Below the pieces are notes generated by a model. It was not told the origin of the DNA. It saw nothing but the letters and a program-made list of their open reading frames with translations, and made no database searches. From Campylobacterota bacterium (GTDB lineage: Bacteria > Campylobacterota > Campylobacteria > Campylobacterales > Sulfurospirillaceae): 44,128 nucleotides of DNA. Made by a program: the position numbers and the translations under genes. The DNA is taken from assembly GCA_009930355.1 (NCBI GenBank), contig RZYK01000002.1:1-44128 (forward strand), in the 5' to 3' direction. The stretch's first letter is position 1. The number at the start of each line of letters is the position of its first letter. Shown here in pieces: positions 4,140 to 18,852 of the stretch.

Positions 4140-4264
4140 AAGAAGGTTTGTTTCATGTAAATAATATGTTTGGCAGTATTTATGAGTTCTAAATTAAAAT
4201 TTCTTTAGTTTTGATAAATATTATTGATTTCATACAAAATTAAGCACAAAAAGCTTAACATTCT

Positions 4265-4283
4265 GATAATGGTTATTACAACA
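4265..4283 (+). promoter_or_regulatory. Candidate Fur box upstream of exbB
   Basis: GATAATGGTTATTACAACA matches 12/19 of GATAATGATAATCATTATC by hand alignment. Confidence 0.35.
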
Positions 4284-4294
4284 ATAGAGGGCAA

Positions 4295-4729
4295 ATGGAA
4301 AATATTAAATTAGCGGTAGATTATGGGGCGTTAGGGATTTTGCTTTTGATGAGCATTTTAGTTGTGGGGTATAGCATTGAGCGGTATTTCTTTTTTAAAT
4401 CTTTACATGTAAAAGCGTATGCAACCAAAAGTAGCCTTGAGCGAGATGTTTCCAAAAATCTTACCATTATCTCTTTAATGGGTTCAAACGCTCCTTATGT
4501 TGGGCTTTTAGGAACGGTTGGGGGCATTATGGTGGTGTTTTATGACATTGGTATGAGCGGAGGCGCTTTGGATACTTCCAAAGTCATCGTAGGGCTTGCT
4601 TTAGCGTTGAAAGTAACGGCTGCTGGGCTTTTGGTGGCGATTCCTTCGACAATGATTTACGGTGGATTTATGCGAAAGGTCGATGTGGCTGTGAGTGAGT
4701 GGGAAGATGAAATCATTAAAGCGGGTTGA
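4295..4729 (+). CDS. exbB: ExbB / MotA-TolQ family proton channel
   Basis: 144 aa, LMGSNAPYVGLLGTVGGIM motif, followed by ExbD and TonB. Confidence 0.9.
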   Translation: MENIKLAVDYGALGILLLMSILVVGYSIERYFFFKSLHVKAYATKSSLERDVSKNLTIISLMGSNAPYVGLLGTVGGIMVVFYDIGMSGGALDTSKVIVGLALALKVTAAGLLVAIPSTMIYGGFMRKVDVAVSEWEDEIIKAG

Positions 4730-5090
4730 GGGGATTAATGTCGTTCCTTTGATCGACATTATGTTGGTTTTACTCACGATTGTTTTAACAGTTTCTTCGT
4801 TTATTGCCCTAGGAAAAATCGAAATCTCTCTGCCTCAAGCGACCAATTTTAGCAAGGTTGAGCCTAAATTTTATGAGATTGGCATTGATGCAGAGCATCA
4901 GTTCTTTGTGAATGGTGAATTAACGCCCAAAGAGGAGTTACATGTAAAGTTTGAAAGCCTCACCAAAGAAGATTCAGTGGCGGTGAGTGCGGATAAGTTA
5001 GCTGCTTATGAGGATTTTATCTATGTGATTGATTTACTCAAAGCTAAAGAAGTTGAAAAAATTGGAATGGTCGTGAATAAAAATGAATAA
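4695..5090 (+). CDS. exbD: ExbD biopolymer transport protein
   Basis: GINVVPLIDIMLVLLTIVLT motif. ATG at 4707 is the likely start. Confidence 0.9.
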   Translation: MSGKMKSLKRVEGINVVPLIDIMLVLLTIVLTVSSFIALGKIEISLPQATNFSKVEPKFYEIGIDAEHQFFVNGELTPKEELHVKFESLTKEDSVAVSADKLAAYEDFIYVIDLLKAKEVEKIGMVVNKNE

Positions 5091-5217
5091 GATAGCGCAT
5101 AAAAAAGTGGATTCAAAGGTGCTTTTTGGCGAGGAGAAGATTGTCAAAATCGTTCACAATGGTGTGGAGTATGTGCTTCGCATTACCAAAGAAGATAAAC
5201 TGATTTTGACGAAGTAG
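5083..5217 (+). CDS. hemP: HemP-like small hemin-uptake protein
   Basis: 44 aa, not in the ORF track: MNKIAHKKVDSKVLFGEEKIVKIVHNGVEYVLRITKEDKLILTK. The pattern V.H.G.EY.LR.T...KLILTK is typical of HemP. Confidence 0.85.
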   Translation: MNKIAHKKVDSKVLFGEEKIVKIVHNGVEYVLRITKEDKLILTK

Positions 5218-5230
5218 AAAAGGGGTTGTT

Positions 5231-5986
5231 ATGGCAAATGTACTGTGTCGTGTCGCACAAAGAAACACGGAGGGAAGAGCACTTTTTCTCTCCTTTGTTT
5301 TGCATGCGAGCGTTATAGGGTTTTATCTGGTGTTTATGTATCAAAAACCATCCTATATAATGCCGAGTAAAGCGATTATTTTGGAGATTTCTAGTATTGA
5401 GCGTGTGGCTCCTAAACCACTCATTCCTACGCCACCCCAGCTAGAACCTGTGGCACAGCAAGAGGTGATTAAGCCTATTGAACCTGTTAAACCTATCGAG
5501 CCTGTTAAGCCGATTGAAAAAGTGAAACCAAAACCAAAACCTATGCTCAAACCAAAACCTATTGCTGAGCCAAAGGCGTTTCAGGAAAAAGCAATGGAAG
5601 AGGCTACGCCACCACCAATGACTTCCCTAGCGAGTGAGCCTGTCGCAGCAGCACCTTCAACGGCAACAACGCCTATGACACCAAGCTCTACCAACAGTGC
5701 GGAGCCTTATGAGCGAACGGATTTTGAGATTATTCGAGATAAGGTACTCTCTCGTTTAATCTATCCTAGTGTGGCACGCCGTATGGGATGGAATGGGGTA
5801 GTGCAGGTGGAATTGGTGATTGATACCACTGGCAAGCTTCTTAGTGCAACCATTCATAAAGGTTCCAATCGCAACGTTTTAGATGAGGCGGCTTTAAGTG
5901 CTGCTTTAAAACTTCAAGGTCAACAGCTCCCTAAGCCTAAAAGTCTCAGTACCATCATCTTACCTATAGCGTTTAAACTTCGATAA
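5231..5986 (+). CDS. tonB: TonB energy transducer
   Basis: Single N-terminal TM, Pro-rich spacer KPIEPVKPIEPVKPIEKVKPKPKP, C-terminal YPSVARRMGWNGVVQVELVI. Confidence 0.9.
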   Translation: MANVLCRVAQRNTEGRALFLSFVLHASVIGFYLVFMYQKPSYIMPSKAIILEISSIERVAPKPLIPTPPQLEPVAQQEVIKPIEPVKPIEPVKPIEKVKPKPKPMLKPKPIAEPKAFQEKAMEEATPPPMTSLASEPVAAAPSTATTPMTPSSTNSAEPYERTDFEIIRDKVLSRLIYPSVARRMGWNGVVQVELVIDTTGKLLSATIHKGSNRNVLDEAALSAALKLQGQQLPKPKSLSTIILPIAFKLR

Positions 5987-6078: not shown

Positions 6079-7263
6079 ATGAGGAAGAGTGATATGCAAA
6101 AAAAGATTTGGTTTTATACGCACTGGTTGTTGGGATTGGTTGCGGGATTTATTTTGGTGATTGTGGGCGTGAGTGGGGCACTTTTGTCGTATGAAAAAGA
6201 GATTATGGGGCTTGTTAATCAGAAAAGTTTTCGCATCGAGGCAACCGCTAACGAGAAGCTCTCACCCGATGTTTTGTTAAATGCGTTTAAAGAAGCACAT
6301 CCTGATTTGGTTGTGGTTGGTTTGCGTATGCTTTCTGATCCCAATGCTTCTACTGCTATTATGGTGCAAGGGGCAAAAGAGGGTGGAAAAAATATGCTCA
6401 ATTATTATATTAACCCTTATAGTGCAGAGCTTTTGCCTGAGGTCAAAGGCGATGCTTTTTTTCGTGTGGTTTTAGATATACATCGAAGATTACTCTTAGG
6501 TGAGGTGGGAAAACAGATCGTTGCAGCATCCACGGTGGCGCTTTTGATACTCTCTTTTTCGGGGATTTATCTCTATTGGGGGAGTATCCGTAAGAGTTTA
6601 AAATCAAGCCTTAGCATCAACTTTAAAGCCAAAGGTAGAGGCTTTTTGTACAAATTGCACTCGGCACTTGGCTTATGGGGACTCCTGTTTTTTGTTTTAA
6701 TTTCACTCACGGGACTCACATGGTCGTATGAGTGGTATAGAACCTCTTTGTACCGTATGGTTGGGGTTGAAGTGCCACAGCATGGGATGCACCATGGGGG
6801 TGGTAAGAAACGAGATTCTTCATCTATGCCATCAGGACAAAAAAATTCAATGATGGACGGGGGTACGCAAAATGCCCTGATTGCTCAAGCATGGGAGCTT
6901 TTTGAAGCCACACATAAAGGTGAGTACAGCTTTGCATTTTTCCGTTTGCCTGATGGAAAAGGGAAAGTTGATTTTACCTATTTGGATAAAAAAGCGCCTC
7001 ATTCACGGGCGTTTAATACTCTCTTAATAGATGCCAAAGAGGGTAAAGTACTTTCCCATGTTCGTTATGATGATAAGCGTATGGCGGAGCAGGTGATGGG
7101 CAGTATGTTACCACTTCACAGTGGAGAGTTTTTTGGATGGGGTGGACGGTTGTTAATTTTTCTCTCAAGTTTAAGCATGGTACTTTTTGGAGTGACAGGG
7201 CTGATGCTCTATCTGGATAGACGTAAAAAAGCACGCAAAAAAGCAGCCCTTCGCGCCGCTTAG
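6079..7263 (+). CDS. PepSY-associated TM protein (PiuB/siderophore-reductase-like)
   Basis: 394 aa, KIWFYTHWLLGLVAGFILVIVGVSGALLSYE, DIHRRLLLGEVGKQIV and KLHSALGLWG motifs. Confidence 0.85.
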   Translation: MRKSDMQKKIWFYTHWLLGLVAGFILVIVGVSGALLSYEKEIMGLVNQKSFRIEATANEKLSPDVLLNAFKEAHPDLVVVGLRMLSDPNASTAIMVQGAKEGGKNMLNYYINPYSAELLPEVKGDAFFRVVLDIHRRLLLGEVGKQIVAASTVALLILSFSGIYLYWGSIRKSLKSSLSINFKAKGRGFLYKLHSALGLWGLLFFVLISLTGLTWSYEWYRTSLYRMVGVEVPQHGMHHGGGKKRDSSSMPSGQKNSMMDGGTQNALIAQAWELFEATHKGEYSFAFFRLPDGKGKVDFTYLDKKAPHSRAFNTLLIDAKEGKVLSHVRYDDKRMAEQVMGSMLPLHSGEFFGWGGRLLIFLSSLSMVLFGVTGLMLYLDRRKKARKKAALRAA

Positions 7264-7335
7264 AGGCTTTTTAGATTTTTACATGTAAAGGGTAGCGTTT
7301 GTAGCGTTGCCTTTTACACAGACAAACAATAAAAC

Positions 7336-7354
7336 GATAAAGATTATCATGTTT
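7336..7354 (+). promoter_or_regulatory. Candidate Fur box upstream of TonB receptor
   Basis: GATAAAGATTATCATGTTT matches 14/19 of the Fur consensus by hand alignment. Confidence 0.45.
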
Positions 7355-7497: not shown

Positions 7498-9462
7498 ATG
7501 CGAAAAAAAGGCGTTTTAGGGCTTAGTTTGGTGGCATCTTTATGTCTGCTTCCTGAGGGTATGTTAGCCGATGCTTTTATTACCTTAGAGAGTGTGACTT
7601 TGATGGAAGAGTCTTTGAGTGGCATTGGCGAAGCCAAAGTGATTTCCAAAGAGAGTTTGGAAAAAACACAAGCCAAAGAGATGAAAGAGGTCTTTAAAAA
7701 TGAGCCTTCCGTCTCGGTAGGCGGTGGGGCGAGAAATGCTCAAAGGGTTTATCTACGAGGTATTGAGGGAAATAATCTTAACATTACCATTGATGGCGCA
7801 AAGCAAGGTGGAAGTTTGTTTCAGCACATGGGTGATGTGGGGAGCATTGACCCCTCTTTGCTTAAAAGTGTTGAGGTTTCAACCATTGCAGGTGCGGATA
7901 AGGGCAATGGGGCACTGGGTGGAAGCATCGCCTTTGAAACAGTGGATGCGCAAGATTTACTTCAAGAGGGGCAAGAGCTAGGAGCGACGCTTCGAGGTGG
8001 TTACTACACTGCTTCTGATGGTGTGCGTGGTGGAACTTCCGTGTATGGCAAAAGCGGGCACGTGGGCATTTTGCTCGATCTCTCAGGCGTAAATCAAGAC
8101 GATTACCGCACAGGTGAGGGTGGTGATGCGGATAATACTGCTGTTAAAGATCGAAACTACTTTTTAAAAGCCAGTTTGCTGGATTATTATGATCATAGTT
8201 TAAAACTTGGAGCGACGCATACGACCAACGATGGGCATTATATTGCAGGCAGTTCTGGAAGCGATATGGGTGTACCAGATCCAAATGCGGCGACCAGTCA
8301 TATCATCACGACACGTGATACCTATACCCTTGATTATCGTTACAATCCCAATAGCGATTGGATTGATCTTAAAACCAATCTTTACTATAACGACCGCAAT
8401 TATGACAATAAAACCAGTAATACCGATGTCACCAGTCAAAATTATGGTGGAAATATCAAAAACAGTTTTGGTTTTGCAACAGGAGATTTGAACCATTTTT
8501 ATAGCGTAGGAATGGATTATGACATTGAAGATGGTGTGACTAAAACAACTTCTGGGGATATTACCAATACCTCAAAAACATTAGGCGCTTTTGTTCAAGG
8601 TGGCTCTAATTACAAAATTGCCACGTTGCGCTATGGCGTCCGTTTGGATGAATATTCCATTGAGTATGGACCTAGCAATGAAGTGACAGGGCATGAATTT
8701 TCCCCCAATGTTGGTTTAGATGTTGAACTTTTTGAAGGGCTAACCGCTTTTACCAATTACAGTGAGGCGATTAAAATCGGCAGTGTTATTCCTGTGCAAT
8801 GGCTCTCTAACGCCAATGCAGCAACCACCTTTAATAGCACGTTAAATGGCGATTTGGAGCCTGAGAGTTCTAAGCAGATGGAAGGGGGACTCCGCTATAA
8901 AACTAAAAACCTTTTGGCAGATACAGACAGTATCGTCTTAGGTATGAGCCTCTTTAAAACAACGATTTCAGATTTAATTTCCAAAAATCCAGCAGGTGGT
9001 CCTACTATCACAAATATTTATAACAGCGATGTGGATGTTATCTCCAAAGGCTATGAACTTAAAGCCTCGTATGCCCTTGCTCCGTTTAAAACCTCGCTCA
9101 GCTTTTTACATGCTAATGTGGAGGATGAAAACGGTGTTGCCATTTTAAGCAGACGTATTGCGGGTTCTGTAGGCGATACCTTTATTTGGGATAATTCATG
9201 GCGCATTAACCCCCAGTTTGCTCTAGGCTATACGCTGACGTCTGTGGGGAAATTGGACGATGAGATTAAGCGGGATAGTTATGTGGTGCATGACCTCTCT
9301 TTGGAGTATAAACCTGCATCTTTGAAAAATTTAACGCTTTATTTTGCCATCAACAACCTCTTTGACAAAGAGTATTACGCACAAACATCATTTGAAAGCG
9401 GTGATACTTTGGTTGAAGAAGCGGGGCGTGATTTTAGAGCCTCATTTAAATACGTATTTTAA
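7498..9462 (+). CDS. TonB-dependent outer-membrane receptor
   Basis: 654 aa, signal peptide, plug domain, C-terminal LYFAINNLFDKEYY...FKYVF. Confidence 0.9.
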   Translation: MRKKGVLGLSLVASLCLLPEGMLADAFITLESVTLMEESLSGIGEAKVISKESLEKTQAKEMKEVFKNEPSVSVGGGARNAQRVYLRGIEGNNLNITIDGAKQGGSLFQHMGDVGSIDPSLLKSVEVSTIAGADKGNGALGGSIAFETVDAQDLLQEGQELGATLRGGYYTASDGVRGGTSVYGKSGHVGILLDLSGVNQDDYRTGEGGDADNTAVKDRNYFLKASLLDYYDHSLKLGATHTTNDGHYIAGSSGSDMGVPDPNAATSHIITTRDTYTLDYRYNPNSDWIDLKTNLYYNDRNYDNKTSNTDVTSQNYGGNIKNSFGFATGDLNHFYSVGMDYDIEDGVTKTTSGDITNTSKTLGAFVQGGSNYKIATLRYGVRLDEYSIEYGPSNEVTGHEFSPNVGLDVELFEGLTAFTNYSEAIKIGSVIPVQWLSNANAATTFNSTLNGDLEPESSKQMEGGLRYKTKNLLADTDSIVLGMSLFKTTISDLISKNPAGGPTITNIYNSDVDVISKGYELKASYALAPFKTSLSFLHANVEDENGVAILSRRIAGSVGDTFIWDNSWRINPQFALGYTLTSVGKLDDEIKRDSYVVHDLSLEYKPASLKNLTLYFAINNLFDKEYYAQTSFESGDTLVEEAGRDFRASFKYVF

Positions 9463-9480: not shown

Positions 9481-10116
9481 ATGAAAAAAAGTTTGTTAGC
9501 TTTTATGGCTATTATCGGATTAAGTGCGCCTTTAGCGGCACATCAGTTGTGGTTGGAGCGTGAGGGCTCTGTGCTTCACGAATACTTTGGTCATTGGCTA
9601 GCTTTTAAAGAAAAGGCAGATGGTAAGCGTTTGGATGCGATTAAAGGCGTTGCGCTCAGTCCTAAAGATGCGTATCTTAAAACCGTACGAGGTGAAGATG
9701 GCATTGCCATTTTTGTCAATAAAGTAGGCGATATGGGTGTGACTGAAGTCATGACCCCTCGGAAGGGAAAATTTGTTGATTTTACCGTGCGTACTATTTT
9801 TCTAGCCCGTGAGGGACGCAGTGAGAGTAAAACACTTTTAGCCCTCGATATGGTTCCAGAATCACCAAATAGTAACACGTTTACGTTAATGTTGGATGGC
9901 AAAGCGCTTCCTAAAGCAAAAGTTTCACTCAAGGCTCCTAATACATGGAGTAAAAATTTTATGAGTGATGAAGCAGGAAAGGTAACCCTTCAAACCCCAT
10001 GGTTGGGTAATTATGTCGCACAACTGGACTACACCGATAAAACCAAAGGTGAGGCTGAGGGGATTGCGTATGATCAGACCAATTATGTCATGACCTTGCA
10101 TTTTAGTGTGAAATAA
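9481..10116 (+). CDS. DUF4198 / NikK-like secreted protein
   Basis: Signal peptide MKKSLLAFMAIIGLSAPLAA then HQLWLEREG; DUF4198-like C-terminus. Confidence 0.75.
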   Translation: MKKSLLAFMAIIGLSAPLAAHQLWLEREGSVLHEYFGHWLAFKEKADGKRLDAIKGVALSPKDAYLKTVRGEDGIAIFVNKVGDMGVTEVMTPRKGKFVDFTVRTIFLAREGRSESKTLLALDMVPESPNSNTFTLMLDGKALPKAKVSLKAPNTWSKNFMSDEAGKVTLQTPWLGNYVAQLDYTDKTKGEAEGIAYDQTNYVMTLHFSVK

Positions 10117-10121
10117 GGCTG

Positions 10122-10150
10122 GAAAATGGCACATCAACGTGCCGTTTTCT
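10122..10150 (+). terminator. Hairpin after DUF4198 gene
   Basis: GAAAATGGCAC-atcaac-GTGCCGTTTTC followed by TTTTT. Confidence 0.6.
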
Positions 10151-10182
10151 TTTTACATGTAAAGCTATTTTGGAGAAAAAAA

Positions 10183-10491
10183 ATGAAAAAAAGTATAGCA
10201 GTGATAGGAATAATGACTCTTTTAGGAAGCAGTGCATTTGCGCACACAGCGCTCATGAGTTGCATGGAAAATGCGGATGCGACCATTACCTGCGAAGCGG
10301 GATTTAGTGATGGTTCCAGTGCGGCAGGGGTGATGTTTAAAGTGGTGCAAGAGGGAAAGGTTGTTTTTGAGAAGAAGTTTGATGAGAACAGCGAGATTAC
10401 CTTTAAAAAGCCACAAGGCGAATACACTGCACTTCTTGATGGTGGCGATGGGCATAGTTTGAGTATTCCTAGTCGCTCCATTTTAAAATAA
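10183..10491 (+). CDS. Small secreted NikL-like protein
   Basis: ATG 10183; signal peptide MKKSIAVIGIMTLLGSSAFA then HTALMSC...TCEAGFSDGSSAAGV...LLDGGDGHSL. Paralogue of 15818-16120. Confidence 0.65.
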   Translation: MKKSIAVIGIMTLLGSSAFAHTALMSCMENADATITCEAGFSDGSSAAGVMFKVVQEGKVVFEKKFDENSEITFKKPQGEYTALLDGGDGHSLSIPSRSILK

Positions 10492-10513
10492 TCTCTTTAC
10501 ATGTAAAAAGGGG

Positions 10514-12577
10514 TTGTACGTAATGCAAAGATACCTTATAGGAAGTTTGATTGCCAGTGTGGCTTTGTATGCCAATGAGGTACAATTTTTGGATGAAATT
10601 GTTACCATTGGTACGAAGAGTGAAAAGAGCGTAAGTGAACAGACCACGCAAGTTGAGCTTATTACGCAAGAAGAGATTGAAAACTCAGGGGCGAGTAATC
10701 TCTCAGACGTTTTAAATGCCACCCCTTCTGTATACGTTGCGCCCTCTGGGAAAACGATAAGTATTCGAGGGATGGGGCATTCTGATACGCTTTTGCTCAT
10801 CGATGGCAAACGGGTCAATGGAGAGTTTGCAAAAACCTATGAGTTAGAGCGAATTCCCTCAGGGATGATTGAGCGGATTGAGATTTTAAAAGGGAGTTCA
10901 AGTCTTCTTTATGGAAGTGATGCAATGGGTGGAGTTATTAACATCATTACCAAAAAACCTTCCAATGAGGATGTGAGTGGCAATGTGCAAGTGATTGGAG
11001 GCAAAGAGAAAGAGAGTGTGGACACCTTTGTTTCAGGCAGGGTCGATAAACTCTCTTATACATTTTATGCCAACTATCTCAACCGTGATGCCTACTTAAA
11101 ATCTAAAAAAACAGATGTCAAAGTGATGCAAGCAGGCGTCGAAAAATCCCCCTCAACGCTTAGCGGAGCTGGTGGATGGGCAAGTTTACGCAGCAATCTT
11201 TCAAACAGTTACACCATCAGTAACGACTATACCGATAATTTAGAAACAAAAAATGTAGGTGGCTCTTTAGCGTATGATTTTAGTGATTTTTTTAGAGCCT
11301 ATATCGAAGCTTCCTATCTTAAAGAGAAAAAAGATGGGCTTTATGTGAGTGAAAGCTATGCGACCAACTATACAAATGCGGGCAATACCATTATGGCAAA
11401 GTACATTCCTGCGCACCAATACGATGATAATGAGCGTTTTAATATCGCCACAGGGTTTGATTATCATCCCAGTGATATGCTTAAACTTACCTACAATCTT
11501 GCCTATTCGCGGTATGAAAAAGATAGAAAAGTCTATACCCCGTTGTGGAGTGAGTTAGGCTACGCTTCCAAAGAAGCTTCCAAATCCAGTCTGAATGTCT
11601 CAACCCTAGAATACCTCACCAATGACGCTCAACTCACATGGACGCTGGATCAAAATAACCGCATTATTACAGGAGCGGAGCACCGTATTCATGATGCCAA
11701 ATCTACTGCATATAACGTGGATGATAGAACCTATACAGGGGCTTTTGTCCAACACGAATATACGCCTTTTGAAAAGCTTCATTTTGTTTATGGTGTGCGT
11801 TACGATAGAACTTCTACCGATGAAGAAGAGACTTCATTGAGTGTTGGGGCGACGTATGACCTTTTGGAGCGTTTAAAGCTTAGAGCCAGTTATGCTCAAG
11901 GCTTTCGAAGTCCTGATGATAGAGAACTCTATGTCAATCAAACCAACCCTAATGGCAGAAAAATGTTAGGCGCAACCGTCATTGATGCGAGTGCTGGGAA
12001 GAACTCACAATACGACTTAAAGTCTGAAACAAGTGAAACGTTTGAAATAGGCTTTTTAACACACGGCGATAGTTGGATGTTAGATGTGGCAGCTTTCAAT
12101 ACGACCATTGATGATAGAATCTCCCAAGTTGCTTATACCACAGGAGGTCTCAACTATAACACCTTTGAAAACATTAGCGATAGCGAAATTAAGGGCGTTG
12201 AGGCGAAGTTTGATGTGGGATTGCATGAGACTCTTTGGCTTCAATTAGGCTACACCTACCAAGATGCACAAAACAAAACAGCGCACACTAAACTCTCAGA
12301 TGTGCCAAAACGTATAGCAAGCCTAAGTCTTAGCTATGCACCTATTAAAAACCTTGAGTTTCGCTCAACCACCAAGTATATCGGTGAGCAAGAGGGCATT
12401 GATGGAGAAGATGTGGGAGGTTTTAGTGTGACCAATGTTAAGGTCATTGCTAAGGAATTTTTCAAAAATACGGATATTTTTGCAGGCGTAGATAATGTGT
12501 TTGAAAAGAGAACCCCTGAATACTTAGGGTTGTTACCTGAATTTGCTTACTATGTAGGTTTTAATTATAAATTTTAG
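10514..12577 (+). CDS. TonB-dependent outer-membrane receptor
   Basis: 687 aa, plug domain motifs (ISIRGMGHSDTLLLIDGKRVNG, SSLLYGSDAMGGVINIITKKP), barrel ending FNYKF. Confidence 0.9.
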   Translation: MYVMQRYLIGSLIASVALYANEVQFLDEIVTIGTKSEKSVSEQTTQVELITQEEIENSGASNLSDVLNATPSVYVAPSGKTISIRGMGHSDTLLLIDGKRVNGEFAKTYELERIPSGMIERIEILKGSSSLLYGSDAMGGVINIITKKPSNEDVSGNVQVIGGKEKESVDTFVSGRVDKLSYTFYANYLNRDAYLKSKKTDVKVMQAGVEKSPSTLSGAGGWASLRSNLSNSYTISNDYTDNLETKNVGGSLAYDFSDFFRAYIEASYLKEKKDGLYVSESYATNYTNAGNTIMAKYIPAHQYDDNERFNIATGFDYHPSDMLKLTYNLAYSRYEKDRKVYTPLWSELGYASKEASKSSLNVSTLEYLTNDAQLTWTLDQNNRIITGAEHRIHDAKSTAYNVDDRTYTGAFVQHEYTPFEKLHFVYGVRYDRTSTDEEETSLSVGATYDLLERLKLRASYAQGFRSPDDRELYVNQTNPNGRKMLGATVIDASAGKNSQYDLKSETSETFEIGFLTHGDSWMLDVAAFNTTIDDRISQVAYTTGGLNYNTFENISDSEIKGVEAKFDVGLHETLWLQLGYTYQDAQNKTAHTKLSDVPKRIASLSLSYAPIKNLEFRSTTKYIGEQEGIDGEDVGGFSVTNVKVIAKEFFKNTDIFAGVDNVFEKRTPEYLGLLPEFAYYVGFNYKF

Positions 12578-12585
12578 GAGAGAAA

Positions 12586-13002
12586 ATGAAAAAAATTGTT
12601 TTAGCCATGCTGTGTGTTTGTGTTTCTTTGATGGCAGAGGGGAAAAATCAAGCGTTTATTATTCATGATTTAATTACGCTAGAGATGCCTGGTGGTGCGA
12701 TTAAAAGTGGGGCATTGGAGCTCAGTGGCGATCAAGTGATTCGTATTTCCAAAGAGGTAAGACCCATCATGCATGAGACCTATCAATCAAAAATCAACGA
12801 AGCCTTTGGTTTGGAAAAGCGGGTGCAAAAACTGCTTCAACAAGGAAAATCCAAAGAAGATGTCAAAGCATATCTGGACCAAATTAGTGCTATTAAGCGA
12901 GAAGCAATGGATATTAAAATAGATGCCTATAAAACCTTTCAAGCGATTTTAACGCCTGAACAGTGGCAACGTTATTTAGCATTGAGTGAGCGTCAAAAGT
13001 AA
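12586..13002 (+). CDS. Secreted Spy/CpxP-like protein
   Basis: 138 aa, signal peptide, helical, ILTPEQWQRY (LTxxQ-like). Confidence 0.5.
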   Translation: MKKIVLAMLCVCVSLMAEGKNQAFIIHDLITLEMPGGAIKSGALELSGDQVIRISKEVRPIMHETYQSKINEAFGLEKRVQKLLQQGKSKEDVKAYLDQISAIKREAMDIKIDAYKTFQAILTPEQWQRYLALSERQK

Positions 13003-13117
13003 AACAGTGATGAATTTCAAAGAGAATAGGCATGTTTAAATTGAAAATAGCTATCAAAGTTATCTTCTTTTAAGTTGAGTTTGCTTATCATTTCTGAATC
13101 AAAAGTAAGGATAAAGT

Positions 13118-13342
13118 ATGCATTTAGGTGAACTGAGAAAAGGGCAAAAGTGTACATTAGTTGCGATTCATAGTGTGGGAAAATTGAAGCAAAAATTATT
13201 AGATATGGGGTTTATTTTTGGAGCAGACATTGAAGTTGTTAGAGAAGCTCCTTTGTATGACCCGATGGAGCTGCGCATTCAAAATTATCTTGTTAGCCTA
13301 AGACGTAATGAAGCAACTCTTTTAGAGGTGAAAGTTTTATGA
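13118..13342 (+). CDS. feoA: FeoA
   Basis: 74 aa SH3-like protein directly upstream of and overlapping feoB. Confidence 0.9.
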   Translation: MHLGELRKGQKCTLVAIHSVGKLKQKLLDMGFIFGADIEVVREAPLYDPMELRIQNYLVSLRRNEATLLEVKVL

Positions 13343-15798
13343 TAAAAGTCGCACTTGCGGGGCAGCCAAATTGTGGAAAATCAACGATTTTCAATCTTGT
13401 CAGTGGTATTCATCAGCATGTTGCGAACTATCCAGGGGTTACCGTTGATAAAAAAGTAGGGCGTTTTGACTATAAAGATAAAAAAATTGAAATAGTAGAT
13501 TTACCAGGGACGTACTCGTTTAGCTCCTATTCACTTGAAGAGCGGGTGGCTAAGGATTTTTTATACGATGAGTCGCCTGATATTATTGTAAACATTGTGG
13601 ATGCTTCCAACATCAAACGCCATCTTTACCTCACGTTTCAGTTGCTTGAGATTGGTATTCCTGTGGTGATTGTCTTAAACATGATGGATGTCGCAAGTCG
13701 TAGAGGCATTTATATAGATGCACCTAAAATACAAGAGATGTTAGGTGCGCCTGTGGTGTGTGCGAGTGGTGCCAAAGGTGAGGGCGGTGAAGCGATTATG
13801 GAAGCCATTGTCTTAGCATACCAGCAAAAAGAGCAGTATCAAAATTTTAAGATTAATTATGAAGAGCTAGAAGTGTTTATTCACGAGATTGAGGCTGAAA
13901 TAGCCGAGGTCAATCTTCCTTTAAACAGACGCTGGATGGCGATTAAGATTTTAGAGGAAGATAGAGCGCTTGTGGAGAAATTAGGCTCTCATTTTACCCA
14001 TTTGCAAGAAAAAGCTAAAGCGTGTGAAGAGCGTTTTCATGCGACGTATGATAAAGATATTAGCGCATTTTTAGCGGCGATTCGTTATGACTCAGCCGAT
14101 GTTATTTTTCATAAGTGTGTGAAAGTGACCAAACTGCACGAAGAGACATTAACGGATAAAGTTGATAAAATCGTTTTAAACCGTTGGCTCGCCTTTCCTA
14201 TTTTATTGCTGGTGATGTTTCTAGTCTATGAGCTTTCCATCGTGTATGGGTACAAGCTGACCGATTACACGTGGCCACTTTTAGCCATGTTTAAAAATTT
14301 TGTGATAGACATATTGCCTGAGCCTGATTTGATTCGTGTGCCAATGATGACAGATTTGTCGATTTGGATGCTCAACAGTGCGATTGCATTGATTAACTAC
14401 ATTCCTATCTTTTTTATTCTCTTTGCGTTGATTGCGATTATGGAAGATGTGGGCTATATGCCACGCCTTGCGTTTATTTTGGATAAGGTCTTTAAAAAAT
14501 TTGGGCTTCACGGTCAATCTACCCTTTCTCTGGTTTTAGGTGGAGCAATGGTAGGCGGGTGCGCAGTTCCAGGAGTCATGTCTACCAAAGGCATTGCTGA
14601 TGAGAGAGCGAGAATGGCTACGATTTTAGCGGTTCCTTATATGAACTGTTTGGCAAAAGTTCCCTTTTATACCCTGCTTTTGGGAGCATTTTTTAAAGAA
14701 GAGATGGGCTTGATGATGTTTTATATCTCGACGGTCACCCTTTTTATTGCGCTCATTGTCTCCAAATTTTTAACCAGTACCGTTTTAAAAAATAGAGAAA
14801 CGGCTCCGTTTGTCATGGAATTACCACCGTATCATTTACCCACCTTTAAAGGGGTGATTATTCGTTCGGCACAAAGGGTGTGGGTTTATATTAATAAAGT
14901 AGTAACCATTGTTTTAGCCGTGGCGATTGTTCTCTTTGCGATGTTACAGTTTCCAGGCTTAAGTGCGGAAGCGCAGCAAAAATACGATGAAAAAATAGTA
15001 CAAGCGCTCAGTACCTTTGATACAAAAGTCAAAAAATCTTCTTATTATGAGAGGGTCGATACGAAAGAAGAGGTTTCAGCGCTTATTAATTACTACGATA
15101 ACTACAAAGCCAAACGTATGGTTGTCTCCGGTGCAGAGGGGGCAAAAAGCGTGGATGAGTCATTTTTGAAAAAAGATGCAAAGCTTTTTATTTTCGTCAA
15201 ACCTGAAAACGATAAAGATGCCAAAATGATCAATAGCGCTTTGCGTCAGATATCCAATGTTCGTAAAGATGTGTTGCGTCAAATTAAAAACGAAAAAATT
15301 GAAAATAGCTTTTTGGGAATGGTGGGACATTCCATGGAGCCCGTGACACAGTTTGCAGGATTTGATTGGAAGATTAACGTGGCGTTTTTAAGCTCTTTTG
15401 CTGCACGTGAGAGTGCGGTAGCCACGCTGGGTTCTTTGTATGAAAATAATAAAGCAGATTCCAAACGTGCGGAAGAAGCGATGTATGAGAATAGTGGATA
15501 TACGCCATTACATGCTGTGGCGATTATTATTTTTATGATTTTAACGCCTCCTTGTATTGCGACGATGATTGTAGTAAAAATGCAGTCTAACAGTTACAAA
15601 TGGATGTTCTTTGCGATTTTATTTCCCATTAGTTTAGGTATCGTTATCTCATCATTTCTCTTCTCTTTTGGCTCCGTAGCGGGTTGGAGTGGCGTTGAGG
15701 CGATGAGTTATTTTTATGTAGCCATTGTCTTTTTAGCCTTATTTTTAGGCTTGATGCCAAATCGCCAAAACGGCTGGTTTGGCGGATTTAGAAATTAA
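13339..15798 (+). CDS. feoB: FeoB ferrous iron transporter
   Basis: 819 aa, G1 GQPNCGKST, DLPGTYSFSSYS, Gate motifs, C-terminal TM region. Confidence 0.97.
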   Translation: MIKVALAGQPNCGKSTIFNLVSGIHQHVANYPGVTVDKKVGRFDYKDKKIEIVDLPGTYSFSSYSLEERVAKDFLYDESPDIIVNIVDASNIKRHLYLTFQLLEIGIPVVIVLNMMDVASRRGIYIDAPKIQEMLGAPVVCASGAKGEGGEAIMEAIVLAYQQKEQYQNFKINYEELEVFIHEIEAEIAEVNLPLNRRWMAIKILEEDRALVEKLGSHFTHLQEKAKACEERFHATYDKDISAFLAAIRYDSADVIFHKCVKVTKLHEETLTDKVDKIVLNRWLAFPILLLVMFLVYELSIVYGYKLTDYTWPLLAMFKNFVIDILPEPDLIRVPMMTDLSIWMLNSAIALINYIPIFFILFALIAIMEDVGYMPRLAFILDKVFKKFGLHGQSTLSLVLGGAMVGGCAVPGVMSTKGIADERARMATILAVPYMNCLAKVPFYTLLLGAFFKEEMGLMMFYISTVTLFIALIVSKFLTSTVLKNRETAPFVMELPPYHLPTFKGVIIRSAQRVWVYINKVVTIVLAVAIVLFAMLQFPGLSAEAQQKYDEKIVQALSTFDTKVKKSSYYERVDTKEEVSALINYYDNYKAKRMVVSGAEGAKSVDESFLKKDAKLFIFVKPENDKDAKMINSALRQISNVRKDVLRQIKNEKIENSFLGMVGHSMEPVTQFAGFDWKINVAFLSSFAARESAVATLGSLYENNKADSKRAEEAMYENSGYTPLHAVAIIIFMILTPPCIATMIVVKMQSNSYKWMFFAILFPISLGIVISSFLFSFGSVAGWSGVEAMSYFYVAIVFLALFLGLMPNRQNGWFGGFRN

Positions 15799-15817
15799 AC
15801 TTTATAAAGGAGAAAAA

Positions 15818-16120
15818 ATGTTTCGAAAAAGTGTATTTGGTATTTTAGTTGCTGCAAGTTCTTTGTTGGCACACTCTGCGATTATGAATTGCTTTGATAA
15901 TGGTGATGGCACAATCACATGTGAGGGTGGCTTTAGTGATGGCAGCAGTGCGAGTGGTGTAGAATTTAGAGTGGAGCAAGATGGCAAGGTTCTTATCAAA
16001 GATAAAATGAGCAAAAACAGTGAGGTTACTTTTAAAAAACCAAGTGGTACGTACACGGCTATCTTTAATGCAGGCGAGGGACATCAAGTCGTCATTAATG
16101 GTAAAGATATTGTTCAATAG
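15818..16120 (+). CDS. Small secreted NikL-like protein, paralogue of 10183-10491
   Basis: ATG 15818; MFRKSVFGILVAASSLLA then HSAIMNC...ITCEGGFSDGSSASGV...NAGEGHQV. Confidence 0.65.
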   Translation: MFRKSVFGILVAASSLLAHSAIMNCFDNGDGTITCEGGFSDGSSASGVEFRVEQDGKVLIKDKMSKNSEVTFKKPSGTYTAIFNAGEGHQVVINGKDIVQ

Positions 16121-16126
16121 GCTTTG

Positions 16127-16151
16127 ATGCTCTTTTTTGGGAGCATTTTTT
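16127..16151 (+). terminator. Rho-independent terminator
   Basis: ATGCTC-ttttttgg-GAGCAT followed by TTTTT. Confidence 0.6.
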
Positions 16152-16198
16152 ATGATTTTTAAATGATAGTAATTATTAACATTATATAAGGAGTTTTT

Positions 16199-17020
16199 AT
16201 GACAAAAAGTTTTCTTAAGGTTGCGTTGGTTTCTTCCGTGATTGCTTCAAGTGCATTAGCACATTTTCAAATGCTTTATACGCCAAATATGGCACTTGAA
16301 AAAGGTGGCAAGATAGAATTACGCCATGTTTTTACCCATCCGTTTGCGGATGAACACACCATGGATATGGGCAAACAACATGATAGCGATGCATTAGCAC
16401 CTGTGGTAGATTTTTTTGCTATCAACAAAGAGCAAAAAACGGATTTGAAATCAACCCTTAAAGAGATTACCTTTAAAGGCAATCATAACAGTGGTAAAGG
16501 CTTTGCCTCTGAGTACAAAGCGCAAAAAATGGGGGATCACATTTTGGTCTTAACTCCTGCTCCGTATTATGAAAAAGGTGAAGATGCGTACATCCAGCAA
16601 ATTACCAAAACCATTGTCAACGTAGCAGGGACACCAACGGATTGGGATACAGATTTGGGGCTTAAAGCGGAAATTGTTCCTTTAACCAAACCTTACGCTA
16701 TTTGGGCGGGTGGCAGTTTTACGGGTGTGGTGAAATCCAATGGACAACCCGTACCCTTTGCTGAAATCGAGGTAGAGTATGTCAATCGAGATGTGGATCT
16801 AAAAACCAATAGCATGGGAAAAGATCGCGTCAAAGCACCTCAAGATGCGTTTGTCACCATGGGTATTAAAGCCAATAAAGACGGTGAATTTACCTTTGCA
16901 ATTCCAAAAGCAGGTTTTTGGGGGTTTGCGGCACTAGGTGTTGGTCCTGATAAAGAGTATAAAGGCAAAGAGTTAAGTCAAGATGCCGTCATTTGGGTGG
17001 AAGCAAAACCGATGAAATAA
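16199..17020 (+). CDS. DUF4198 / NikK-like secreted protein
   Basis: Signal peptide MTKSFLKVALVSSVIASSALA then HFQMLYTP; 273 aa DUF4198 architecture. Confidence 0.8.
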   Translation: MTKSFLKVALVSSVIASSALAHFQMLYTPNMALEKGGKIELRHVFTHPFADEHTMDMGKQHDSDALAPVVDFFAINKEQKTDLKSTLKEITFKGNHNSGKGFASEYKAQKMGDHILVLTPAPYYEKGEDAYIQQITKTIVNVAGTPTDWDTDLGLKAEIVPLTKPYAIWAGGSFTGVVKSNGQPVPFAEIEVEYVNRDVDLKTNSMGKDRVKAPQDAFVTMGIKANKDGEFTFAIPKAGFWGFAALGVGPDKEYKGKELSQDAVIWVEAKPMK

Positions 17021-17061: not shown

Positions 17062-18189
17062 GTGATACAAAAACACTTTTTTTCAACTTACTCGAATCGT
17101 TTTTTTATCTTTTTTGTTGTGCTAGGAGTTTTTTTGTATGGTGGATGGAGACTTTTAGAGAGTCACGAAAAAATCAAAAGCATTGCTAAAGATGAAATGG
17201 TGATGCTCTATAAAATAGTTTTAAAACTTTCGCACCCAAACATTTTTCATTCTGTAAGTATTGAAAATGAAGCGTATGAGAGCCAAAAAGAATTTTTTGA
17301 TGAGTATCAAAAAATCACACCCTATGCTCTAGCACAAGCGTCTCACGAAAAACTCCCTTTTGCCTTAACTCTTCATTTTTTTACTAAAGAGAGTTTACCC
17401 GCTGAATTACAAGGAGACTTAAAGGCTTTAGAAAAGAGTCCTTATGTTTATAAACAGATACCATTTCATATCACGCTTTTGGGAAAGGTTGGGGAAGATG
17501 GGTATCTTTTCATTCAAAAAGAAGCACGCAATCTAGAAAGTCTCTTACGTGTCATTAGGGATAGGGTATGGGAAATGGGTTTTATACTTTGTATGACACT
17601 GGGTGCTCTTTTGTTTGCTTATTATGAGGCATGGACATACCATCGAAAAAAAGAGAGTATGGAAGCTGAATACCTCTATTTGGAAGAAGATGCGAAGAAA
17701 TTAGCCTTTGTCGATACTCTCACAGGTGTTGCAAGTCGGCTCAAATTGTCACAGTCTTTGGATGATTTGATTGAAAATGCCAAACGCTTTTCTCAACCGT
17801 TCTCACTTATTTTGTGTGATTTGGATCATTTTAAACGCATTAACGATACCTATGGGCATGATTATGGAGATGAGGTTTTACAAAGCGTTGCTAAGGTTTT
17901 AGAGCATAATTTACGAAAAAGTGACATTATCGCACGTTGGGGTGGTGAAGAATTTATACTGCTTTTACCAATGGCGCATTTAAAATCTGCGATTAAAACT
18001 GCAGATAAATTACGCAGGAGTATTTGTGTTTCCTCGTCGGATACGTTAGCTTATGTGACATGTTCATTTGGGGTTGTAGAGTATCAAATAGGAGAAGATA
18101 CTCAGAGGCTTTTTAAAAGAGTCGATACGCTTTTATATGAAGCAAAAAAGGCAGGGCGTAACTGCATTAAATATGAAAAAAAAGGATAA
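17062..18189 (+). CDS. GGDEF diguanylate cyclase, membrane-anchored
   Basis: Two TM segments flanking a periplasmic domain, RKSDIIARWGGEEF (I-site RxxD five residues before GGEEF). Confidence 0.9.
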   Translation: MIQKHFFSTYSNRFFIFFVVLGVFLYGGWRLLESHEKIKSIAKDEMVMLYKIVLKLSHPNIFHSVSIENEAYESQKEFFDEYQKITPYALAQASHEKLPFALTLHFFTKESLPAELQGDLKALEKSPYVYKQIPFHITLLGKVGEDGYLFIQKEARNLESLLRVIRDRVWEMGFILCMTLGALLFAYYEAWTYHRKKESMEAEYLYLEEDAKKLAFVDTLTGVASRLKLSQSLDDLIENAKRFSQPFSLILCDLDHFKRINDTYGHDYGDEVLQSVAKVLEHNLRKSDIIARWGGEEFILLLPMAHLKSAIKTADKLRRSICVSSSDTLAYVTCSFGVVEYQIGEDTQRLFKRVDTLLYEAKKAGRNCIKYEKKG

Positions 18190-18414: not shown

Positions 18415-18852
18415 ATGTCAAAAGTCATTAAACAATTACAAGAGATTCAAGCGAACAGTCACATTTTATACGTCACTTTTCATAACTATCATTGGAATGT
18501 TAAAGGGATGCAATTTTTCCCAGTCCATGAGATGACAGAAAAACTTTACGATGCGATGTCAGAGGTTTTTGATGATACTGCGGAGCGTATTTTACAACTT
18601 GGGGGTAAGCCTCTCGTTACTCTTTCTGAAATTGTAGCTGTTGCGACTTTTAAAGAAGAGACTCAAAGCTCATTTGAAGCTAAAGAAGTGATTGCCCATG
18701 TGGTTAAGGCATTAGAAGCGATGCTTGCAGGATGGGTTAAACTCTCAAAACTTGCAGAAGAGGTTCGTGATACCACTACGATGGCGATGGCAGATGAAAA
18801 AGTCGCCGAGCTTGAAAAACAACTTTGGATGTACAAAGCAACCCTTGCCTAA
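18415..18852 (+). CDS. dps: Dps-like ferritin
   Basis: 145 aa, NSHILYVTFHNYHWNVKG and DDTAERILQLGGKP motifs. Confidence 0.9.
   Translation: MSKVIKQLQEIQANSHILYVTFHNYHWNVKGMQFFPVHEMTEKLYDAMSEVFDDTAERILQLGGKPLVTLSEIVAVATFKEETQSSFEAKEVIAHVVKALEAMLAGWVKLSKLAEEVRDTTTMAMADEKVAELEKQLWMYKATLA

Follow-up and report, generated by a model that had tools for sequence, protein, structure and literature searches.

In the window, the whole 44,128-nucleotide stretch that was analysed (contig RZYK01000002.1 of a Campylobacterota bacterium, assembly GCA_009930355.1), small secreted NikL-like proteins (S) and secreted DUF4198-like proteins (D) are encoded beside FeoA and FeoB, and this FeoB belongs, to judge from its sequence, to a distinct subtype that carries a long loop. 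FeoB is a main bacterial ferrous-iron importer. The association recurs across genomes, and we consider it rather probable that these genes form a module for Fe(II) uptake under Fur control: S and D would bind periplasmic Fe(II) and pass it on to the looped FeoB. The preliminary description of this DNA had proposed a metal-uptake system built around a TonB receptor and FeoAB; the looped FeoB subtype lies beyond that account and shifts the centre from the receptor to FeoB.

Organization of the iron-acquisition island

The island lies on the forward strand. Eight co-directional genes, D1-S1-TonB receptor 2-Spy-like-FeoA-FeoB-S2-D2, all present in the order first described, are preceded by exbB, exbD and tonB-like genes, a PepSY_TM protein gene and TonB receptor 1. 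The features are as follows.

4295..5986, + strand: exbB, exbD and tonB-like genes (energy for TonB receptors), assigned from the open reading frames and their order, which is the same in L004 and G295
6079..7263, + strand: PepSY_TM protein, ferric-reductase-like family (Pfam PF03929, E 1e-61)
7498..9462, + strand: TonB-dependent receptor 1, hemin-receptor-like (PF00593/PF07715; TIGR01785 272 bits, under the cut-off of 317)
9481..10116, + strand: D1, DUF4198-like secreted protein, predicted mature start HQLWL (PF10670 19.8 bits, under the Pfam gathering score of 34)
10183..10491, + strand: S1, small secreted NikL-like protein, predicted mature start HTALMSC at 10243 (NF058648 40.4 bits)
10523..12577, + strand: TonB-dependent receptor 2 (PF00593/PF07715)
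12586..13002, + strand: Spy-like (LTXXQ) secreted protein, weak match (PF07813 E 0.03)
13118..13342, + strand: FeoA (PF04023 E 4e-18)
13339..15798, + strand: FeoB of the looped subtype, 819 aa (TIGR00437 474.5 bits; in a clade apart from other FeoBs)
14950..15312, + strand: FeoB loop before Gate 2, 121 residues (538-658), probably periplasmic (loop-length comparison; loop profile)
15818..16120, + strand: S2, small secreted NikL-like protein, predicted mature start HSAIMNC at 15872 (NF058648 38.8 bits; AlphaFold model)
16199..17020, + strand: D2, DUF4198/NikK-like secreted protein, predicted mature start HFQML at 16262 (PF10670 186 bits, over the gathering score; AlphaFold model)
17062-18189: GGDEF protein, directly 3' of D2
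18415-18852: ferritin-like (Dps) gene, just downstream of the island

The full island is also present in G295, a complete genome of the same genus, and in L004; it is therefore no assembly artefact. For Desulfovibrio, predicted Fur sites have been listed at a GGDEF gene (Rodionov 2004, PMC545781). Two other features of the window were recognized by eye: an interrupted remnant at 1630-2170, which resembles the N-terminal part of TonB receptor 1, and a small membrane protein at 1008-1550, which looks like an MntP-type manganese exporter.

Conservation of FeoA-FeoB-S-D

A search with the alignment of S1 and S2 as query yielded 79 loci in named genomes from Campylobacterota, Desulfuromonadota, Desulfobacterota and a few beta- and gamma-proteobacteria. 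All open reading frames of these loci were compared with the proteins of the window. Whether the gene order is conserved had been raised in the preliminary description, and what recurs is FeoA-FeoB-S-D, the usual order among the loci: D lies directly 3' of 67 of 82 S genes, and feoAB adjoins 69 of the 82, with FeoB directly upstream in the same direction in 58 and a divergent feoAB in 11. Several S genes without these neighbours are truncated by contig ends. Because the search patterns contained no FeoB, the link to FeoB is independent of the query.

The mirror symmetry around the TonB receptor, which had been given prominence, is real in the window, L004 and G295, but only close relatives have it, and it is FeoAB rather than the receptor that is the conserved partner. 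The locus L005 has no S besides S1, and in G153 other genes stand between the two halves of the mirror. The mirrored arrangement was rejected as an essential feature, being local to close relatives and divided in G153.

Of 298 Campylobacterota genomes, 29 have the looped FeoB; S occurs in 27, every one of them among those 29 (Fisher p 2e-36, a statistic that ignores relatedness), and in each of the 27 S lies within about 1 kb of the looped FeoB. Two genomes of the same genus, G265 and G278 (loci L139 and L138), have a looped FeoB with no S-D beside it; S-D is therefore not strictly required. Outside the Campylobacterota, the pairing of looped FeoB with S was seen in all nine genomes examined, and the other FeoBs of these nine genomes have neither the loop nor an adjacent S. 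In addition, the identities of FeoB, S and D correlate with one another (Mantel r 0.60-0.75).

Frequent neighbours of FeoA-FeoB-S-D are an ABC ATPase and a DUF4857 (PF16149) membrane protein, as in L029 (11395-13877), L022 (4653-7209), L039 (8774-11227) and L007 (5430-7037); the assignment was tested by family in L029 and L022 and made by the size and start of the open reading frames in L039 and L007.

The looped FeoB subtype

The domains of the FeoA and FeoB of the window are complete by Pfam (G domain, Gate and FeoB_C), and FeoB scores well over the TIGR00437 equivalog cut-off of 315.65 bits. In 101 Campylobacterota genomes, the S-adjacent FeoB, about 820-844 aa long, matched TIGR00437 only to about position 515, whereas the ordinary FeoBs of these genomes matched it from end to end. 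A broken gene was considered as the cause of this partial coverage in the window and rejected: the gene is intact, and coverage ends at the loop. In the alignment, the segment before Gate 2 measures 117-130 residues in S-linked FeoBs, compared with 3-67 in all others examined and 15 in FeoB of E. coli K-12. The S-linked FeoBs form a single clade with a support of 1.0, and a profile of the loop retrieves only this subtype. Compared with other Campylobacterota FeoBs, they have an additional C-terminal hydrophobic segment, and their gate motif reads GGCAVPG as against FGCSVPA.

The loop probably faces the periplasm: the segment ahead of the helix that precedes it is rich in Lys and Arg, which predicts this side by the positive-inside pattern, but Lys and Arg are abundant in the loop as well, and this counts against the prediction. 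Sequence searches of solved structures with the membrane half of FeoB gave no useful homologue, and no solved structure spans the loop.

The S and D proteins

All four secreted proteins, D1, S1, S2 and D2, have a His at the predicted +1 position, in agreement with the signal peptides ending just before a His that had been read from the sequence. S1 and S2 are 52% identical and have in common the motifs ascribed to them earlier. Across the 82 homologous S proteins, with cleavage judged from sequence, His occupies predicted +1 in every case, and the residue at -1 is always A, G or S. The conservation of His1 is not circular, because His1 was absent from the search patterns; that of TITCE.GF is partly circular, because one of the patterns contained it. 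The 62 aligned S have two invariant Cys and an invariant His in the C-terminal GxGH. S chains stop about 11 residues past GxGH, and His1 and His71 (of GxGH) are invariant across S and NikL. The AlphaFold single-chain model of S2 is confident (mean pLDDT 96.9) and predicts a beta-sandwich. Foldseek matched it to generic Ig/FnIII-like sandwiches (best E 5e-3), and neither Foldseek nor sequence searches of solved structures found a close solved relative. In Desulfuromusa (L101 and L102, 1477-1788, - strand), there is a second short S-like protein, which adjoins a different DUF4198 protein with the predicted mature start HNLWL.

Among the S-bearing loci found, relatives of D1 occur only in L004, L005 and L006. 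The predicted +1 residue of D is His in 97% of sequences, and His47 of the open reading frame (mature residue 26) is present in 100%; in aligned D, His1 and His26 are invariant. D proteins thus combine a predicted mature N-terminal His with a second conserved His, as do N-terminal-His DUF4198 metalloproteins such as IsDUF4198. The single-chain AlphaFold model of D2 is also confident (mean pLDDT 95.9). Structure prediction had been proposed as a check on the locus, and the D2 model matches Zcp (PDB 9mhn, Foldseek E 2e-13) and Ni-bound IsDUF4198 (PDB 9gcb, E 8e-7), with TM-scores of only about 0.5-0.6. Sequence searches of solved structures with D2 reached Zcp alone, over a short stretch.

Relation to NikL and NikK

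The NikK/NikL-like identity first assigned to these proteins holds clearly for D2 as a DUF4198 protein; D1 stays below the PF10670 cut-off, and S1 and S2, which match positions 3-89 of the 180 of NF058648, stay below its cut-off of 100 bits. Most NikL found beside NikM have a C-terminal hydrophobic helix. Membership of S in NikL was rejected, since S scores below the cut-off, has no such helix and does not stand beside NikM. In the trees, 66 FeoB-linked D fall in one clade (0.97) and 15 NikK in another (1.0), D lying outside the clade of NikK encoded beside NikM; one group takes in all 82 S, with a low support of 0.365, and NikL is supported at 0.994. S is a diverged homologue of NikL, and D of NikK, as alignments and profiles indicate. 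For the S and D genes, an automatic name such as 'nickel/cobalt transporter subunit' is probably wrong.

In line with the metal-uptake association without a NikMQO core proposed at the outset, no CbiM/NikM (PF01891) was found in the window's own assembly, which is 88.7% complete. When 30 S-bearing genomes were searched with the NikL model, many proved to hold a true NikL beside CbiM/NikM, with S elsewhere; in G001, for example, NikL (C7:94317) and NikM (C7:94637) share a contig, and S is on C15. A CbiM/NikM match was absent from 10 of the 30, among them the isolates Campylobacter majalis, Ignatzschineria cameli, Oligella urethralis and Desulfuromusa kysingii. A NikL-like protein of a third kind, which has a membrane helix at its C-terminus, was noticed in L140 (4544-9022; own genome, contig C258) and in L022 (11252-11749); in L140, it adjoins a PepSY_TM protein and a TonB receptor.

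Fur-box-like sites

Fur-box-like sites were scored as matches out of 14 to TGATAATNATTATCA, and the following lie in the island.

4264..4278: TGATAATGGTTATTA, shortly before exbB, 12/14 matches
7335..7349: CGATAAAGATTATCA, before TonB receptor 1, 12/14 matches
13042..13056: TGAAAATAGCTATCA, before feoA, weak, 11/14 matches
16164..16178: TGATAGTAATTATTA, before D2, 12/14 matches

The sites before exbB, TonB receptor 1 and D2 are the three best matches in the 44-kb window; mononucleotide shuffles of the window give about 0.85 expected sites at 12/14 or better. Upstream of feoA, 11 of 24 Campylobacterota regions hold a candidate Fur site at p<=0.05, where about one would be expected. Outside the Campylobacterota, candidate sites were found in 8 of 44 regions and are weaker (delta-proteobacterial consensus, PMC545781).

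Proposed mechanism and alternatives

Based on the results presented above, the TonB receptors, energised by ExbBD-TonB, would bring iron into the periplasm, where the PepSY reductase would keep it as, or turn it into, Fe(II). S and D would then bind Fe(II) through their mature N-terminal His, by both its alpha-amino group and its side chain, together with other conserved His, and would present it to the looped FeoB, whose loop of about 120 residues would serve, in the periplasm, as the docking or gating site for both proteins. Iron is the likely metal because of the Fur-like sites and the linkage to FeoB; it counts against an Fe(II) module that, of the DUF4198 proteins, the one measured best has a preference for Ni (Kd 18 nM, PMC12537917), and that the metals in the solved Zcp structures are Zn, Co and Cu. 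We would give about an even chance to a more specific version: S and D, loaded with Fe(II), would dock on the added periplasmic loop, and the NikK-NikL accessory pair of an ECF-type ABC transporter family would have been put to new use on a GTP-dependent channel unrelated to that family.

A role for S and D as periplasmic iron buffers, either sequestering proteins that guard against free Fe(II) and its Fenton chemistry or holders of released iron, co-regulated with FeoB and delivering nothing to it, appears unlikely. The Dps gene just downstream, the Fur-like control and the looped-FeoB loci without S-D would all suit such buffers, but the S-D pair accompanies one loop-bearing FeoB subtype and not the other FeoBs of the same genomes, and this pairing points to a physical partner more than to a general buffer.

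It is quite unlikely that the module imports Ni, Co or another divalent metal through a looped FeoB of changed substrate with NikK/NikL-like helpers. Such a change could draw on the homology of S-D to NikL-NikK, the binding of Ni by IsDUF4198 (PMC12537917) and the altered gate motif; it is opposed by the Fur-like sites, the TonB, PepSY and Dps context and the separate clades of D and NikK. In addition, a second Ni system would be redundant, because many of the S genomes already hold a true NikL with NikM elsewhere.

A copper system of CopC or histidine-brace type, suggested earlier by analogy with CopC and LPMO, is very improbable and was rejected on family and fold searches: beyond the N-terminal His, it can call on a phmmer search of S1 that reaches CopC entries at E 0.026, though over residues beginning in the signal peptide, whereas the context is one of iron, S has no CopC match in Pfam, and the 50 Foldseek matches listed for S include no CopC and one LPMO10 NMR model (E 0.11).

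The Fe(II) module remains the favoured reading. A looped FeoB with two secreted N-terminal-His proteins offers a testable system for the collection of Fe(II) at the outer face of FeoB.

A second context with CobN-like proteins

In both L034 and L046, S-D is flanked on one side by the gene of a secreted-looking CobN-like protein, which comes first, and on the other by a TonB receptor gene. By contig names, L034 belongs to the assembly of L014 and L046 to that of L015, and both L014 and L015 hold FeoB-S-D. The two CobN-like proteins, of 1394 and 1385 aa (L034 5815-9999 and L046 5827-9984), have signal-peptide-like starts. Heme-iron use in Bacteroides fragilis requires FeoAB as well as CobN-like proteins (PMC6460266), and HmuS, which is related to CobN-like proteins, is described as a heme de-chelatase in the title of PMC12583661. 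By analogy, the proteins of L034 and L046 are possible heme de-chelatases, and this context would fit a periplasmic release of Fe(II); they may instead have a cobalt role.

Comparison with known systems

The closest relatives of the S-D pair are found in NikKMLQO. S and the secreted half of NikL are homologous and have His1, Asp12, Phe21 and GxGH in common; D is homologous to NikK, which the D profile retrieves at E 1e-46 to 1e-73; and NikK and NikL, like S and D, are encoded as a pair. On the other hand, S has an invariant Cys pair that is absent from true NikL and lacks the membrane helix of NikL, and S-D adjoin FeoAB instead of NikMQO and form separate groups in the trees. Compared with feoABC of E. 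coli (L141), the S-linked FeoB has its long loop in place of 15 residues and a changed gate motif, and S-D neighbours take the place of FeoC.

IsDUF4198 (PDB 9gcb) and Zcp (PDB 9mhi-9mhn) have the fold predicted for D2, and IsDUF4198 resembles D in its mature N-terminal His and second conserved His; D differs from both in belonging to the FeoB-linked clade. IsDUF4198, a secreted N-terminal-His DUF4198 protein, binds Ni(II) via His1 and His18 with a Kd of 18 nM, and its gene neighbours include TonB receptors and NikR (PMC12537917). Structures of Zcp have been solved with Zn, Co and Cu (PDB 9mhi-9mhn).

DUF4198 genes of Caulobacter belong to the Fur regulon (PMC3751524), and clusters of PepSY proteins often encode DUF4198, including PepSY-DUF2271-DUF4198 clusters (PMC8238504). 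In the available parts of PMC8238504, PMC3751524 and PMC7190382, DUF4198 stands alongside TonB receptors and PepSY proteins in iron-responsive loci, which resembles the island of the window, but in those parts it is not paired with FeoB or a NikL-like protein. In the open-access literature, we found no published report of an S-D pair with FeoB or of the FeoB loop, and the sole paper found with both DUF4198 and FeoB is a Caulobacter preprint, in which DUF4198 is among the iron-responsive genes. Of the 'undescribed' system first announced, the FeoB-linked S-D pair is new as far as we found, whereas the metal site of N-terminal-His DUF4198 proteins, which bind Ni and are linked to TonB receptors, is already published, as are the DUF4198 genes of a Fur regulon and NikK/NikL proteins without NikMQO.

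The latter, orphan NikK/NikL in organisms without NikMQO, were noted in 2009, when their neighbours gave no hint of function (Zhang et al., PMC2667541). Both they and S-D are homologues of NikK and NikL, and the neighbour of S-D is FeoAB. The orphan group probably includes the S-D group, and the FeoB-linked S-D offer an answer to the question raised there, namely why relatives of NikK and NikL exist in bacteria without NikMQO.
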